Below are positions 29,681 to 42,861 of a stretch of DNA of 64,000 nucleotides, in pieces; positions within the stretch are counted from its first letter, which is position 1, and the number at the start of each line of letters is the position of its first letter. The position numbers were made by a program, and so were the translations under genes. The stretch comes from Halodesulfovibrio spirochaetisodalis. GTDB lineage: Bacteria; Desulfobacterota; Desulfovibrionia; Desulfovibrionales; Desulfovibrionaceae. The stretch covers positions 124,001 to 188,000 of the forward strand of contig NZ_JXMS01000001.1 of the NCBI RefSeq assembly GCF_001672295.1, read 5' to 3'. The notes under the pieces are model-generated. The model was not told where the DNA came from. It ran no database searches and saw only the letters and a program-made list of their open reading frames with translations.

Positions 29681-31594
29681 ATGTCTGATAAGAGCCAATC
29701 TTCTCCTCGTCTACTGGACAGCATTAACTTGCCGTCTGATGTCCGCAAGCTTGACCACGCACAGCTGGAACGGCTTGCTGGGGAGCTGCGTGAAGAAATA
29801 ATTTCCGTAGTTTCTGAAACGGGCGGTCACCTTGCTCCATCTCTTGGAGTTGTGGAGCTGACTCTTGCCTTGATGTCTGTTTTTGATTTTGATCATGACA
29901 AGCTTGTCTGGGACGTTGGACATCAGGCATACGCATGGAAATTGCTCACAGGTCGAAAAGATGATTTCCATACCTTACGCACGAAGAACGGTGTAAGCGG
30001 GTTCCCTAAGATGGCGGAAAGTCCGTATGACCACTTTGGGGTAGGACATTCTTCCACTTCGATTTCCGCAGCTTTGGGGATGGTTGTTGCTCGCGAACTT
30101 TCCGGTAAGAAAAATGAGGTAATCTCCATTATCGGTGATGGCTCTATGACTGCCGGTTTAGCCTTCGAGGGACTTAATCAGGCAGGACATGTGGACAAGA
30201 AGATGCTTGTTATTCTCAACGATAACGAGATGTCTATTTCTAAAAACGTGGGCGCAATGTCGCATTTCATGTCCCGTAACTTGTCCTCCCGCTGGGTGCG
30301 CAGATTCAAAAAAGACGTTGAGACCATCCTTAACGCAGTTCCTGCCATTGGTGAGGAAATGCTCAATTATGCACGACGCAGTGAGCATAGTTTGAAGAGT
30401 TTCTTCACACCGGGCATGTTGTTTGAAGCATTTCAATTTAACTACATGGGCCCGATTGACGGCCATGACATAAAAGCATTGCAGCGTGCGTTCAGACTGT
30501 ATCAGGATCTGGATGAGCCTGTATTGCTGCATGTGCTTACCAAAAAAGGGAAAGGCTACGCTCCGGCTGAATCCAACCCGACTTTCTTCCACGGTGTAGG
30601 CAGTTTTGTGCCGGAAACCGGACAGGCGCGTAAGGTTGCTAAAGTGAATGCGGTGCCGACCTACACTGAAGTGTTCGGTAATGCATTATGTGACCTTGCA
30701 GAGCAGGATAAGCGCATTGTGGCTATTACTGCAGCAATGCCGGAAGGTACCGGTACAGCCTGTTTTGAAAAGAAATTTCCTGAACGTTTTGTAGATGTTG
30801 GCATTTGTGAGCAGCATGCTGTTACCTTTGCAGCAGGGCTTGCAGCGCAGGGGTACCGTCCTTTTGTCGCTATTTATTCAACGTTTATGCAGCGTGCGTA
30901 TGACCAGATTGTGCATGATGTCTGTTTGCAGAATCTGCCGGTTACGTTCTGTCTCGACCGTGGCGGTATTGTGGGAGAAGATGGCCCGACCCACCACGGT
31001 GTGTTTGATTTGAGTTTCATGCGTCATATTCCGAATATGACGGTACTTGTTCCGTCCAGTGAAGCAGAGCTTGCTGACTGCATGGCAACAGCGCTTGCAC
31101 ACGATGGGCCGGTGGCAATTCGTTACCCGCGTGGTGCAGGCTACGGAATCCCGCTGAAAGAAAAGGCTCAGCCGTTTGCTCTTGGCACTGGTGAAATTTT
31201 ACTTGAGGGAAGTGATGTTGCCGTTGTTGCAGTGGGCTCCAGAACATATCCTGCCCTTGAAGCAGTTAAAGAGCTTGCCAAAGAGACTGGAAAGCAGGCG
31301 ACTGTTTTCAATGCTCGCTGTGTTAAGCCGTTGCCGGAAGAGCAGCTTATTGAGCTTGCAAAAACACATAAGGCCATGCTGTTGATAGAAGAAAATGCCT
31401 TGCAGGGTGGATTCTCCTCAGCAGTGCTTGAGTTGCTTTCAGATAAAGGGGCTCTTGGGAACTGTAGAGTGAAGCGTCTCGGTGTTCCTGATGAATGGGT
31501 AGAGCATGGGGCGCAGGGTGAGTTGCGTGAGCAGCTTGGTCTTAACGAAGAAGGTATTAAAAGAGCAGTACAGGCTCTTTTTGAAGAAGCATAA
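29681..31594 (+). CDS. dxs: 1-deoxy-D-xylulose-5-phosphate synthase
   Basis: 637-residue thiamine-diphosphate enzyme for the first step of the MEP pathway, joining pyruvate and glyceraldehyde 3-phosphate. The ThDP motif GDGSMTAGLAFEGLNQAG ends in the expected LNDNEMSIS. The second domain has the catalytic Glu region (VGICEQHAVTFAAGLAAQG) and DRGGIVGEDGPTHHG. The transketolase C-domain completes the chain. It ends the xseA-dxs operon; a terminator hairpin lies 49 nt downstream. Confidence 0.97.
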   Translation: MSDKSQSSPRLLDSINLPSDVRKLDHAQLERLAGELREEIISVVSETGGHLAPSLGVVELTLALMSVFDFDHDKLVWDVGHQAYAWKLLTGRKDDFHTLRTKNGVSGFPKMAESPYDHFGVGHSSTSISAALGMVVARELSGKKNEVISIIGDGSMTAGLAFEGLNQAGHVDKKMLVILNDNEMSISKNVGAMSHFMSRNLSSRWVRRFKKDVETILNAVPAIGEEMLNYARRSEHSLKSFFTPGMLFEAFQFNYMGPIDGHDIKALQRAFRLYQDLDEPVLLHVLTKKGKGYAPAESNPTFFHGVGSFVPETGQARKVAKVNAVPTYTEVFGNALCDLAEQDKRIVAITAAMPEGTGTACFEKKFPERFVDVGICEQHAVTFAAGLAAQGYRPFVAIYSTFMQRAYDQIVHDVCLQNLPVTFCLDRGGIVGEDGPTHHGVFDLSFMRHIPNMTVLVPSSEAELADCMATALAHDGPVAIRYPRGAGYGIPLKEKAQPFALGTGEILLEGSDVAVVAVGSRTYPALEAVKELAKETGKQATVFNARCVKPLPEEQLIELAKTHKAMLLIEENALQGGFSSAVLELLSDKGALGNCRVKRLGVPDEWVEHGAQGELREQLGLNEEGIKRAVQALFEEA

Positions 31595-31642
31595 CCGCTT
31601 GTTGAAAATTAATGACCATTCTGCACATTGCGGCGTCATGGT

Positions 31643-31696
31643 AAAAAAAGTCAGACGCTCACATATGTTCATCTATTGGTCGTCCTAGACTTTTTT
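31643..31696 (+). terminator. Intrinsic terminator after dxs
   Basis: AAAAAAGTC-GACG pairs with CGTC-GACTTTTTT around a long loop. It is related in sequence to the GTCAG-type terminators at 40793 and 56247. Confidence 0.7.
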
Positions 31697-31703
31697 GTAT
31701 TCC

Positions 31704-31750
31704 TTGCACTGCACAGATTTATTCCCATCTGTCAGCTTAGGATGTTGTAA
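31704..31750 (+). repeat. Repeated hairpin element, copy A
   Basis: A 47-nt block starting TTGCACTGCACAGATTT. About 40 of 48 positions are shared with copy B at 40739-40786. It folds as CTG-CA-CAGAT-(8 nt)-ATCTG-T-CAG and is followed by AGGAT. It sits between two terminators, so 31697-31788 could be an independent short RNA. Confidence 0.6.
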
Positions 31751-31758
31751 GTAGCCTT

Positions 31759-31788
31759 AGCCGGAGCAATTTGCTCCGGCTTTTTTTT
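31759..31788 (+). terminator. Intrinsic terminator closing the copy A unit
   Basis: Ten-pair stem AGCCGGAGCA-ATT-TGCTCCGGCT followed by eight T. It is the second strong terminator within 150 nt of dxs, which suggests a separate short transcript upstream of it. Confidence 0.92.
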
Positions 31789-31815
31789 ATGGAAATACAG
31801 TGGGAACGGCGTCTT

Positions 31816-39263: not shown

Positions 39264-40063
39264 TGCAACAGGAACTCTCGCCATATCTTGACTGGTTTAC
39301 ACAATATGTTGCGCGGTATGCTCAGCCTGACAGTACTGAACAACAATATATTGACCTGAAGCACGATCATACGTTGCGTGTATTTGAGAATGCGGGATTA
39401 ATCGTCGCCACGCTGCCGCTGGATTCAGTTACTGCACGAGTGGCATTGTTAGGGGCATTGTTTCATGATGTCGGGCGGTTTGAGCAGTATCGGGTGTACA
39501 AAACATACAGTGATCGTAACTCAGTTAATCACGGCTTGCTTGGCTGTCGCATTTTAGGACAAGAGCAGGTGCTGCAAGGTGAACCTGAGAGTATCCGGAA
39601 AGCAGTACGGGCGACTGTGGCAATGCATAATAAGTTTGCGCTGCCCATAGGGCTTCCTGAAGTCGTCCGTGTGGCCTCCAATATTGTCCGTGACAGCGAT
39701 AAACTGGATATTTTTCCTGTACTGGTTTCTAACTTTACGCGTGACGGATCGAAAAGCGATGTTGTGACGCTGGGGTTGGAAGAAGGAAAAACACAATATA
39801 CCTCTGTTATTTTACATAATGTTCTGCACGGCAAACCTGTTAAGTATGCAGACATGCAATACGTGAATGACTTTAAGCTGCTTCTTGCAAGCTGGGTGTT
39901 TAATCTGGAGTACAGAACGTCCATGGAACTACTGTCTGAACGTGGTGCAATGGAACAACTGCTTGATACGCTGCCTGCGTTATCCGAGATGGATGAAGTG
40001 AAGCGGGTTGTCCGTGCTGAAATGTATCGTGTACTCACGTCAGATGTTGAAACTAAGGGGTGA
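39263..40063 (+). CDS. HD-domain metal-dependent phosphohydrolase
   Basis: 266-residue protein. The HD core is read as KHDHTLRVFENAGLIV, then GALFHDVGRFEQYRVYKTYSD (the HD pair), then RATVAMHNKFALP and ASNIVRDSDKLDIF, where the last Asp is the fourth metal ligand. This arrangement is typical of stand-alone HD hydrolases acting on nucleotides or related phosphoesters; the substrate is not predictable. It overlaps the upstream membrane-protein gene by one base and is followed 4 nt later by a degenerate methyltransferase-like gene. Confidence 0.85.
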   Translation: MQQELSPYLDWFTQYVARYAQPDSTEQQYIDLKHDHTLRVFENAGLIVATLPLDSVTARVALLGALFHDVGRFEQYRVYKTYSDRNSVNHGLLGCRILGQEQVLQGEPESIRKAVRATVAMHNKFALPIGLPEVVRVASNIVRDSDKLDIFPVLVSNFTRDGSKSDVVTLGLEEGKTQYTSVILHNVLHGKPVKYADMQYVNDFKLLLASWVFNLEYRTSMELLSERGAMEQLLDTLPALSEMDEVKRVVRAEMYRVLTSDVETKG

Positions 40064-40067
40064 TCGC

Positions 40068-40637
40068 GTGAAGGCTGCTGTACAATTTTTATGGAATAAG
40101 CTTGTTGCCAGCACTGTTACGCAGGCCGTAACGCTTGTGGATAAAGCTCGTGCCCGCCGTGTTCTTATTCTCGGCGAAAATACCAATGCACTCTCTGATG
40201 CGCTTGAAGCAGTTGTAGAGCAACTTGATGTTATTGATGATAAAACGTTGAGTACGCGATTATCTGCTTCTTGTGAGAGCGTACCTGATTCTCAGCCTGT
40301 TCTTACAGCAGCAGATGGTTCGTATGATCTATGCTTAGTCAGCTTTGCTTTGCATAAAGTGGAGCCGGAAGTGGCAGAGAAGCTGGTGCGTGATTGCTTA
40401 CGGGTTGCCCCTAATGCGTTGCTTATCGATTTTGCCCTTGCAGAACGGAATATTGAATTACCATCTCAGTATATCTGTTCGTTTGCAGAGCAGTTCCTTC
40501 ATGGCGGGCATTGGGAAGTGTTCCAGCGGTATATTCGGGTCGGGGCACTGCATGGCATTGCTCATCGGGCATCCGCCAGTGAATTTGCCAACGTGACAAT
40601 ATGGGGCGGTGGTGTTCGTCTCTTACTTGTAGGGTGA
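40068..40637 (+). CDS. Degenerate class I methyltransferase-like protein
   Basis: 189-residue protein whose layout resembles a SAM-dependent methyltransferase: ARRVLILGENTNALSDAL at the motif I position, then YDLCLVSFALHKVEPEVAEKLVRDCLRVAPNALLIDFALAERN, the motif IV-VI region. Motif I lacks the usual Gly-rich D/E-x-G-x-G, so SAM binding is doubtful. The start is GTG at 40068 after AAGGGG; the longer frame overlaps the HD gene. Third gene of the membrane-HD operon. It could be a catalytically dead partner or a diverged enzyme. Confidence 0.65.
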   Translation: MKAAVQFLWNKLVASTVTQAVTLVDKARARRVLILGENTNALSDALEAVVEQLDVIDDKTLSTRLSASCESVPDSQPVLTAADGSYDLCLVSFALHKVEPEVAEKLVRDCLRVAPNALLIDFALAERNIELPSQYICSFAEQFLHGGHWEVFQRYIRVGALHGIAHRASASEFANVTIWGGGVRLLLVG

Positions 40638-40738
40638 TACTCAGCGTGATGACAAACCTGCACATGGCGGTGTTGCTTCGAAAAAACAAACACCCTCTTA
40701 GAGGGCTAGCTATTTTCCACCCTTGAGTTTTTCTCGCG

Positions 40739-40786
40739 TTTGCACTGCACAGATTTGTTTCGATCTGGCAGATAAGGATATTTTAA
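40739..40786 (+). repeat. Repeated hairpin element, copy B
   Basis: Second copy of the element at 31704-31750, beginning TTTGCACTGCACAGATTT and sharing the CTG-CA-CAGAT…ATCTG-G-CAG hairpin and a following AGGAT. The loop and the spacer base differ between copies, while the stem is kept. A terminator starts 6 nt later. Confidence 0.6.
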
Positions 40787-40792
40787 CAGCAT

Positions 40793-40827
40793 AAAAAGTC
40801 AGGTGCGACTGCACCTGACTTTTTTTA
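40793..40827. terminator. Bidirectional terminator (GTCAG family)
   Basis: 14-pair stem AAAAAGTCAGGTGC-GACT-GCACCTGACTTTTT plus a T-run. It closes the copy B unit and also serves the convergent alkyl sulfatase gene. Confidence 0.92.
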
Positions 40828-40869: not shown

Positions 40870-42861
40870 CTACTGCTTTGGCAATGGAGCATTCGGGGTC
40901 ACAATGTTGAACCAGAACGGGAAGGTGTCCATCATTGCGATGAGGTCTTTGAGTTTTTGCGGGTCACCGTCTAATGCGATTTCTCCTTCCTTGATAGCCT
41001 CTGGGACAGTGGTCTGCCTGAGGAATATCCTGTTGAGCACATCCCGCGTCATATTGACGGTGACTACAGCATCTTTGTCTGCCCCCTTGTAATGGGAAAG
41101 GGTAGAGTTGTGGAGATCAAGAACGTACTGTTCGGAGGTGTCCGTGAGGGCAAGGTTGATCTTCATGTCTTTACCGGCAGACCGTTCAGGATTGATGCGT
41201 ATTGCCAGATAATCCAGAAGCATGGTTGTCTTCATTGCCAGCAGAAAGTCAGGAGAAGCTGTTTGCGGTGCTGGCAGCTTTTCTATCCCGTTTCGTAATT
41301 CCTGTGCGCCTGTGAGGTAGAAGTTACGCCACGGGCCGGACTCAGACTGGTATCCAAGCTGTTCCAGAGCGTCGGCTACGAGTTTGCGGGCGTCCTTATT
41401 GGAAGGGTCTGAAAAAACAATGTGGTTGCAGACTTCAGCTACCCAGCGGTATTCGCCGTTTTCATATGCTTTACGGGCTTTAGTAAGAATTTCTTCTGCG
41501 CCGCCCATGTATTTAACATATCGCTTTGCGGCTTCAACTGGCGGCAGCACATGCAAGTTGGAAGGGTTACCGTCAAACCATCCCAGATAGAATACGTATG
41601 TTGCTTTTACGTTGTGGTAGACAGTGCCGTAATACCCACGCATTGCCCAGTGCTGTTGTAAGGCTTCCGGAAAATGAACCTGTTCGGCGATTTGATCCGG
41701 TGTGTAGCCCATGTTCGCAAGGCGCAGTGTCTGGTCGTTAATGAATCTGTAACCGTCACGAGCCATTTTTAAGTCTTTGATGACAGCTTCATTTCCCCAT
41801 ACTGGCCAGTGGTGCATAGCGTAGAGCACTTCGGCGTCTTTGCCCCACATTTCGATTGTTTCATTGAGATACTTTGACCACGCCAGAGGGTCTCTGATTT
41901 TTGCACCACGAAGTGTGTAGGTGTTGTGTAAGGTGTGTGTGCAGTTTTCTGCGGCAGAAACAGCTTTGAGCTGCGGGATGTACCAGTGCATTTCTGCTGG
42001 TGCTTCAGAACCCGGAGCCAAAAGGAATTCAAAGTCCAGACCGTCGATGGTCATTTTTTGACCGGTTTTGGTAATAAGGTCTGTCGGAAGAATCAAGGTT
42101 ACGGTACCTGTGGAGGTCGTTGTTCCTAGTCCTGCGCCCACTTGTCCTTCTGGAGAAGGAGGAAGCAGATTACCGTACATGTATGTTGCACGGCGGCTCA
42201 TGGCGTTACCAGCATACACGTTTTCTGAGACTGCCGCTTCGGTGAATCCTTCCGGAGCAATTATCTTGATTTTACCGTCGCGGACATCTTTTTCATCAAT
42301 GATGCCACGCACGCCACCGAAATGATCAACATGGCTGTGGGAGTAGAGTACAGCCTTGATAGGCTTTTCAGGGCGGTGTTCAAAATATAGCGCAAGAGCT
42401 GCCTTGGCAGTTTCAGCAGAAATGAGCGGGTCGATAACGATGATTCCGGTATCGCCTTCAATGACCGTCATGTTGGAGAGGTCTGCATTGCGTATCTGAT
42501 AGATACGGTCACAAACTTTAAATAAGCCGCCCTGCATGACCAGCTGCATTTGTCGCCACAGGCTTGGATTTACAGTGTTGGGTGCTTTTTTTTGCTTGAG
42601 GATAAACTGGAACGCCTGCATGTCCCAAACGGTATTACCTTTAGCATCTTTGATTATACCATTGTTTGGGAGCGGGGCAATAAATCCCTTAGCTGCATCC
42701 TTGAAATCCTGTTCATCCGCAAATGGCAGGATTTTTAACCAGCGTGCATTTTCTTGAATAGTATGTTTGGTCGCAGGGTTGGGGGAAATGTCTGCGTATG
42801 CAGGTAAGGCAAAGGCTATTAGCACTAGCCAGATAAAGGCTGTCAGTCGTATGCCGTTCAT
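40870..42861 (-). CDS. Secreted alkyl sulfatase-like metallo-beta-lactamase-fold hydrolase
   Basis: 663-residue exported enzyme of the SdsA1/BDS1 type, which hydrolyses alkyl sulfate esters such as SDS. The signal peptide is MNGIRLTAFIWLVLIAFALPAYA. The binuclear zinc motif is YSHSHVDHFGGVRG, with further ligands in SAAENCTHTLHN and the MHHWPVWG region. A helical dimerisation domain follows, and a C-terminal SCP2-like lipid-binding domain holds the alkyl chain. AGGAGAAG precedes the ATG. In a sulfate reducer it could release sulfate and an alcohol from surfactants. It is monocistronic. Confidence 0.9.
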   Translation of the reverse strand: MNGIRLTAFIWLVLIAFALPAYADISPNPATKHTIQENARWLKILPFADEQDFKDAAKGFIAPLPNNGIIKDAKGNTVWDMQAFQFILKQKKAPNTVNPSLWRQMQLVMQGGLFKVCDRIYQIRNADLSNMTVIEGDTGIIVIDPLISAETAKAALALYFEHRPEKPIKAVLYSHSHVDHFGGVRGIIDEKDVRDGKIKIIAPEGFTEAAVSENVYAGNAMSRRATYMYGNLLPPSPEGQVGAGLGTTTSTGTVTLILPTDLITKTGQKMTIDGLDFEFLLAPGSEAPAEMHWYIPQLKAVSAAENCTHTLHNTYTLRGAKIRDPLAWSKYLNETIEMWGKDAEVLYAMHHWPVWGNEAVIKDLKMARDGYRFINDQTLRLANMGYTPDQIAEQVHFPEALQQHWAMRGYYGTVYHNVKATYVFYLGWFDGNPSNLHVLPPVEAAKRYVKYMGGAEEILTKARKAYENGEYRWVAEVCNHIVFSDPSNKDARKLVADALEQLGYQSESGPWRNFYLTGAQELRNGIEKLPAPQTASPDFLLAMKTTMLLDYLAIRINPERSAGKDMKINLALTDTSEQYVLDLHNSTLSHYKGADKDAVVTVNMTRDVLNRIFLRQTTVPEAIKEGEIALDGDPQKLKDLIAMMDTFPFWFNIVTPNAPLPKQ

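Follow-up and report, generated by a model that had tools for sequence, protein, structure and literature searches.

In the window (the whole 64-kb stretch of DNA that was analysed), the last genes of two units, dxs and a gene of no named function, are each followed on the same strand by a copy of the repeat TTGCACTGCACAGATTT, at 31704 (copy A) and 40740 (copy B), and then by a terminator hairpin, which is different at each site (Table 1). This agrees with a preliminary description of the DNA, apart from the position of B, which had been given as 40739. Two matches to the pattern GCACTGCACAGATTTNTTNNNATCTGNCAG, both with 0 mismatches, are present in the window, against none in 100 shuffles. 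The 47-nt block described earlier is a real repeat but was drawn too narrowly, since the alignment of A with B continues for about 95 nt upstream, and the block is the 3' inner part of a dispersed element of about 150 bp.

Copy A is placed between the stop codon and the terminator of dxs, and its 5' terminal inverted repeat is degenerate. The terminator abutting it, a hairpin (31759-31781) followed by a T-run in the terminator scan, is, by comparison with the empty site in a relative, the host dxs operon's own. Copy B begins 4 nt past a stop codon; its right end was placed by hand at the hairpin foot (the alignment gave 40794), and the hairpin (~40793-40824), which the simple terminator scan did not list, was read straight from the sequence. 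The gene before B, for which no NCBIfam match was found, has matches in ten of ten genus genomes, four of them partial at 36-41% identity. An ORF on the minus strand (40870-42861) is convergent with this gene and B's terminator lies between them, so that the terminator is probably shared by the two genes. This ORF gave only weak NCBIfam matches, below cut-off, to a metallo-beta-lactamase-type hydrolase domain. At both A and B, a terminator is found on one side only, a single hairpin being kept at each.

Table 1. Features at copies A and B of the repeat element in the window
Feature	Position	Strand	Basis
dxs (1-deoxy-D-xylulose-5-phosphate synthase); copy A in its 3' UTR	29681..31594	+	TIGR00204, 803 bits vs cut-off 466
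Element copy A, degenerate, probable IS1182-type MITE	31605..31758	+	alignment of 18 host-genome copies; empty site in Halodesulfovibrio sp. N3
Covarying core stem of copy A (AAAAAAAGTC ... GACTTTTTT)	31643..31697	.	covariation analysis
47-nt block in copy A	31704..31750	+	direct reading, pattern count, copy alignment
Intrinsic terminator of dxs operon (predicted), abutting A's right end	31759..31789	+	terminator scan; counterpart without element in L150
Last gene before B, no named function	40008..40637	+	ORF
Element copy B	40642..40792	+	copy alignment; absent from 5 close relatives looked at
5' terminal inverted repeat of B (CAGCGTGATGACAA)	40642..40655	+	2 mismatches to family; terminal-repeat pattern search
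Covarying core stem of copy B (GAAAAAAC ... GTTTTTC)	40680..40734	.	covariation analysis
47-nt block in copy B	40740..40786	+	direct reading, pattern count
Terminator hairpin abutting B's right end (AAAAAGTCAGGTGC-GACT-GCACCTGACTTTTTTT)	40793..40826	.	read directly; hairpin adjacency scored

A dispersed family with terminal inverted repeats and empty sites

Aligned well-kept copies have the terminal inverted repeats CAGATTGATGACAA…TTGTCAGCAATCTG and a length of about 150 bp. The terminal repeats measure 14-17 bp (14 bp in well-kept copies), the interior is palindromic and there is no gene. A short form (L004) with 16-bp ends, 15/16 matching, and a long form with about 27 additional bases at the 3' end were also observed.

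Further copies, which the preliminary description had proposed to look for, were found in the host genome (Halodesulfovibrio; 3.61 Mb, 59 contigs), with many matches for copy A as query and 25 matches, some partial, for a cleaner query copy (BLAST, E<=0.001). In the same genome, a 15-base pattern with up to two mismatches gave 25 occurrences against 3 for the reversed control, and the terminal-repeat pattern gave 86 against 10 for its control. The element is present in six of the ten genus genomes, the host's own included (BLAST, E<=0.001). Across the bacterial family, the typed consensus matched at least 12 of 149 genomes and 6 of 44 genera (E<=1e-4; up to five candidates scored per genome); some of the related cores in these genera have other ends. 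The plasmid search with copy A as query gave no match.

Several arrangements of the copies were noted in addition. Three copies (L015, L016 and L047; G000:C25, ~31.7-33.1 kb) lie between repeated tRNA-like ends (CTATCCAACTGAGCTACATCCCCG, by eye), and the core stem of L047 has an outer arm of wholly different sequence with the pairing retained. Elements with related cores in L295, L298 and L290 start exactly after a TAG stop codon (..CTAG, then CAG), and L295 and L298 carry CCGTTGAAAA-type ends, similar to those of a distant IS1182 subgroup (~30% identity). A variant in L270, L271, L274, L275 and L276 (G006) and in L279 (G003) has an unrelated insert of about 60 bp (CGCACCCCTAGGGCACTTG...AACGGTTGACTGG) near the 5' end. 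The core copies in L286, L287 and L289 (G008) are flanked by other inverted repeats (GCCAAGCAGGCA or GAACCAAGCAT), which abut another dispersed repeat.

Sites without the element were found in relatives. The best match of dxs is in Halodesulfovibrio sp. N3 (91% identity; next 56%), and in this one relative the corresponding terminator lies about 16 nt past the dxs stop with no element. The other sites were compared in the five closest of nine congeners, a scope that leaves G002, G004, G005 and G009 outside. At site B, the element is absent in 5/5. At the site 3' of era, all five have the single terminator AGGCGGC-TTTT-GCCGCCT, and the host genome has the element, antisense to its gene, between two copies of that hairpin. 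Upstream of a trk-type gene, the C58 copy occupies the loop of a hairpin, with a repeat of about 8 bp, and the same hairpin is uninterrupted in four of the five relatives. In the fifth, G007 (L248), the site holds another insert, which has a similar end (ATCAATCTG) and lies between CCCTCA and TGAGGG. The host genome has an insertion 3' of purH, at a hairpin apex, in common with G006 and G008, whereas G001, G003 and G007 lack it. On the evidence of these alignments, A and B are insertions. The element is short and without a transposase gene, has terminal inverted repeats and occurs in dispersed copies with empty sites in relatives, as is expected of a MITE.

Strong covariation of the core stems was observed in 47 copies, which come from several genera (45 of 48 aligned copies plus L047 and L015; L263, L281 and L019, poorly aligned, were left out), with 15 of 16 pairs changed on both sides. 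The both-side-changed cells number 106 vs 32.7 in shuffles, and the score is 0.371 vs 0.151, with slid versions at 0.076-0.118. Covariation of this strength would be expected if the copies were a dispersed family of 3'-UTR or independent small RNAs with the hairpin as a functional RNA, and the positions of A and B before terminators, where they are probably transcribed, and the good RNA folding of L002 (z -4.8) point the same way. For A and B themselves, the predicted folds are scarcely, if at all, better than those of shuffled sequences (z -1.9 and -0.2). In a strand-specific RNA, G-U cells are expected to outnumber A-C cells. The two stems together have 19 G-T and 30 A-C cells, and without one column pair (26/79) in which A-C is common, 18 and 15 (p=0.73), indicating no overall strand bias. 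The short inner stem (G-T 10, A-C 2) would by itself fit a plus-strand RNA; the outer stem leans the opposite way (G-T 9, A-C 28), and the overall wobble pattern fits selection or repair on DNA.

No sigma-70-like promoter or other promoter-like site was found at A or B, and no Rfam match at gathering score was obtained at A, B or five further loci. Matches below threshold were seen at A only (Spot 42, 29.5 bits vs cut-off 80, and others), and were set aside, most of them spanning the terminator hairpin. Together with the empty sites between congeners and the antisense position of the era copy, these results make a small-RNA family very unlikely as the explanation, and for A and B themselves this reading is poorly supported, although an RNA derived from a 3' UTR may be made there. 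The earlier suggestion of a mobile RNA hairpin or small-RNA family is thus borne out for a mobile hairpin family; its 90-110-nt small RNA finds no support, given the terminal inverted repeats, the empty sites, a start about 95 nt upstream of the 47-nt block, and the promoter, Rfam and strand results. A first idea, of a pseudoknotted or riboswitch-like RNA, was likewise abandoned once terminal inverted repeats and empty sites had come to light.

Hairpins at the boundaries and their duplication

Boundary hairpins were scored in the 16 window-family copies with both ends placed, the ends being taken from one alignment (cut by hand in L004, L018 and L022); truncated, tRNA-adjacent and further BLAST places stand outside these statistics. 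A hairpin adjoins a boundary in 9/16 copies, and both boundaries in 2/16. Seven copies have no hairpin at either boundary, and two of these (L003 and L006) show a 6-bp repeat instead. In the controls, drawn for the window family from 47 stretches of other genus genomes (L299-L345), a hairpin was found at 269 of 4000 random positions (both sides 3) and at 703 of 6000 positions 5-100 nt past long-ORF stops (both sides 4).

The preference for hairpins is also seen in a sister MITE in the more distant congener G009, which is 160 bp long with a different interior and the same kind of ends. At least 42 matches, 86-93% identical to the query copy, were obtained there with 40 of 87 candidates scored; all 42 listed matches were used, and the G002 row was left out. 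A hairpin adjoins at least one boundary in 41 of the 42 copies and both boundaries in 24. Against the post-stop control, the Fisher p values are 2e-5 for the window family and 7e-37 for the sister MITE.

A target-site duplication is clear at era, L011, L293 and L294, and not at A or B themselves. The whole hairpin is duplicated in the era and L011 copies; at era, five empty sites with one hairpin each serve as the comparison. Both element copies retrieved from G079, a genome of another genus, are bracketed by a duplicated terminator hairpin, in one case as an exact 18-bp repeat. For the sister MITE, a strict test (direct repeat >=12 bp, >=80% identical, ungapped) detected boundary repeats in 21/42 copies, 16-34 bp long and all containing a stem, compared with 8 of 1722 mismatched flank pairs; several of the 21 copies that fail the ungapped test are, by eye, flanked by hairpins differing by an indel.

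Sister MITEs also occur close together. In L396 (G009:C13:559767-560075), two tandem copies are separated by a single shared hairpin, as would result if the second had inserted at a duplicated terminator, and in L359 / L387 (G009:C13:69950-70255), the two copies of L359 nearly touch.

Relatives with an IS1182 transposase

A search of viral contigs with two exact patterns of the terminal repeat gave 25 and 4 stretches. An inverted-partner scan and inspection of these 29 stretches yielded one complete element, L433, of 1596 bp, with the ends CAGACTGCTGACAAAG ... TCATCAATCTG and the hairpin AGCCACATAGTGGCT on both flanks. Its transposase of 479 aa scores 494 bits to NF033551 (IS1182; cut-off 270) and also matches PF13751 and PF05598. 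With this protein, tblastn matched 6 of the 29 stretches and left 23 without a match. The transposases of L435 and L434 are 64-67% identical to that of L433 over long pieces, L437 has pieces at 44-62%, and L420 and L430 have two short starts. L434-L437 contain an exact copy of the window family's 17-base end, CAGATTGATGACAAACC, a short match that was found by searching for it; this end adjoins a hairpin in L434, L435 and L437, L434 and L435 having one flank in common. In L436, the interior ends too early to judge the transposase. The sister MITE and L433 have CAGAYTGCTGACAAAGTC in common.

Among close IS1182 elements (n=13: L433 and 12 plasmid elements without clinical source, out of at least 40 plasmid matches), 12 have flanking direct repeats, 15-30 bp long, each consisting of an entire stem-loop. 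The sequence of the repeat differs from locus to locus, and the two copies are exact in 11 and differ by a single mismatch in one; none of 132 mismatched flank pairs match. The thirteenth element, L448, has two different hairpins. At least three A directly precede the left copy in 8 of the 12, and at least three T directly follow the right copy in 9; both runs are present in 7 and neither in 2. Distant IS1182 elements (~30% identity, 7 of at least 60 matches) differ in their ends; five have repeats of 4-5 bp, and in L451 and L455 the ends are unclear. None of the seven has a hairpin-sized repeat, suggesting that the habit of duplicating hairpins is limited to one subgroup.

The flanking hairpin pairs might also be pre-existing tandem terminators, with no duplication on insertion, and the sister-MITE and IS sites have no known empty counterpart. 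This is extremely unlikely, considering that 11 of the 12 IS repeats are letter-perfect and locus-specific with no match among the mismatched flank pairs, and that at era one hairpin in each of five relatives looked at stands against two in the host genome.

An IS1182 transposase (NF033551, E<=1e-5) was found in 0/10 genus genomes, the host's own included, so that A and B are most plausibly orphan MITEs of the IS1182 type. The L433 protein had no tblastn match among 349 loci from the genomes searched, and terminal-repeat pairs in 60 stretches revealed no convincing transposon. Candidates for an autonomous element in the genus were rejected, as only MITE-sized pairs and distant pairs of lower quality were found, the best distant pair being L339 (1762 bp, 1+2 mismatches), with no match to the L433 transposase. 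As no resident enzyme was found, the link to IS1182 rests on the ends and the target habit.

The palindromic interior, the intergenic placement, the high and uneven copy number and the related cores in 6/44 family genera, some with different ends, would also suit an ERIC- or REP-like palindromic repeat that spreads by another mechanism, for example through a REP-associated tyrosine transposase, with terminators being merely common in intergenic DNA. True terminal inverted repeats, target duplications of whole hairpins and the same ends on an IS1182 element argue against such a repeat, as does hairpin adjacency far in excess of that just past stop codons, and its probability is judged to be slight.

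Proposed mechanism and comparison with known systems

We hold with good confidence that A and B descend from old insertions of a non-autonomous MITE of the IS1182 type, which was moved in trans and prefers intrinsic-terminator hairpins. The mover would be a DDE transposase from a subgroup of IS1182, not found today in the genus genomes searched, with intrinsic-terminator hairpins as preferred targets. In the sister MITE and the close IS1182 elements, the whole hairpin is duplicated at the flanks, and the length of the duplication thus follows that of the hairpin. As the hairpin is duplicated as a unit of variable length, the strands in these well-preserved relatives would be joined at the two feet of the stem-loop and not at a fixed base distance, and repair would then duplicate the entire hairpin. 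The T-run after and the A-run before the hairpin, where present, would remain outside the two copies, so that transcription from either side would still meet a hairpin and a T-run. Because A and B keep one hairpin, we infer a duplication there, of which the proximal hairpin would have decayed or been lost, leaving the distal one; alternatively, A and B may have inserted beside a hairpin with no duplication.

In general terms, it is likely that transposases of this IS1182 subgroup recognise the shape of the target, an extruded terminator stem-loop, and join at the stem feet, that the duplication is the hairpin (15-34 bp seen) and flanking genes keep a terminator, and that compensatory changes in the DNA itself preserve the MITE core stem. 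Most insertion sequences produce target duplications of fixed, short length, and a duplication length that tracks the secondary structure of the target points to a transposase reading DNA shape. This would explain in a simple way how such elements can spread and leave genes and terminators intact. If true, flanking genes retain a terminator and insertion is nearly neutral, which could explain how a MITE reaches at least 42 copies in a single genome. It also suggests an annotation rule, in which paired identical terminators around a spacer indicate an IS1182-type element or MITE, and the same rule can prevent MITEs from being annotated as small RNAs.

With other MITEs and small palindromic repeats (ERIC, Correia/NEMIS, RUP), the window family has in common that it is small, non-coding, palindromic, intergenic and multi-copy. 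ERIC, Correia/NEMIS and RUP have other terminal repeats and short fixed duplications. REP elements with REP-associated tyrosine transposases are also palindromic intergenic repeats, whereas the window family has long terminal inverted repeats and target duplications.

Targeting of palindromes by IS1182 elements is already in print; for it, PMC4923244 and PMC5678879 cite a review by Siguier and colleagues. The targets of TnSha1 and IS1272, of the IS1182 family, are hairpins, several of them confirmed terminators, and partial deletion with no duplication is reported in PMC4923244. The two elements are like those studied here in targeting inverted repeats and terminator hairpins with no sequence specificity, but they are reported to leave no target duplication and to replace the hairpin or delete part of it, whereas here it is duplicated. 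In the model for IS1272 set out in PMC5678879, joining at the 3' feet of a cruciform is proposed to remove the hairpin; in pathway b, a drawn alternative, the strands are joined at the 5' feet and the hairpin would be duplicated, and in pathway c they are joined at the loop, of which alone a second copy would arise. The elements described here fit pathway b as drawn there, and the copy at the trk site looks like pathway c. Duplication of a whole terminator by IS1182 elements or MITEs was not reported in the titles and abstract openings of the open PubMed Central articles found, though IS databases may record such repeats, and within this literature hairpin duplication is known only as the proposed alternative of PMC5678879.

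With the IS1182 subgroup that comprises L433 and the Salinivibrio, Rhizobium and ISBspe1-like elements, there is likeness both in terminal repeats of the CAG-CTG-TGACAAA type and in hairpin targets with duplication of the whole hairpin. The window elements differ from that subgroup in having no transposase gene and a palindromic interior, and A and B in having one hairpin.
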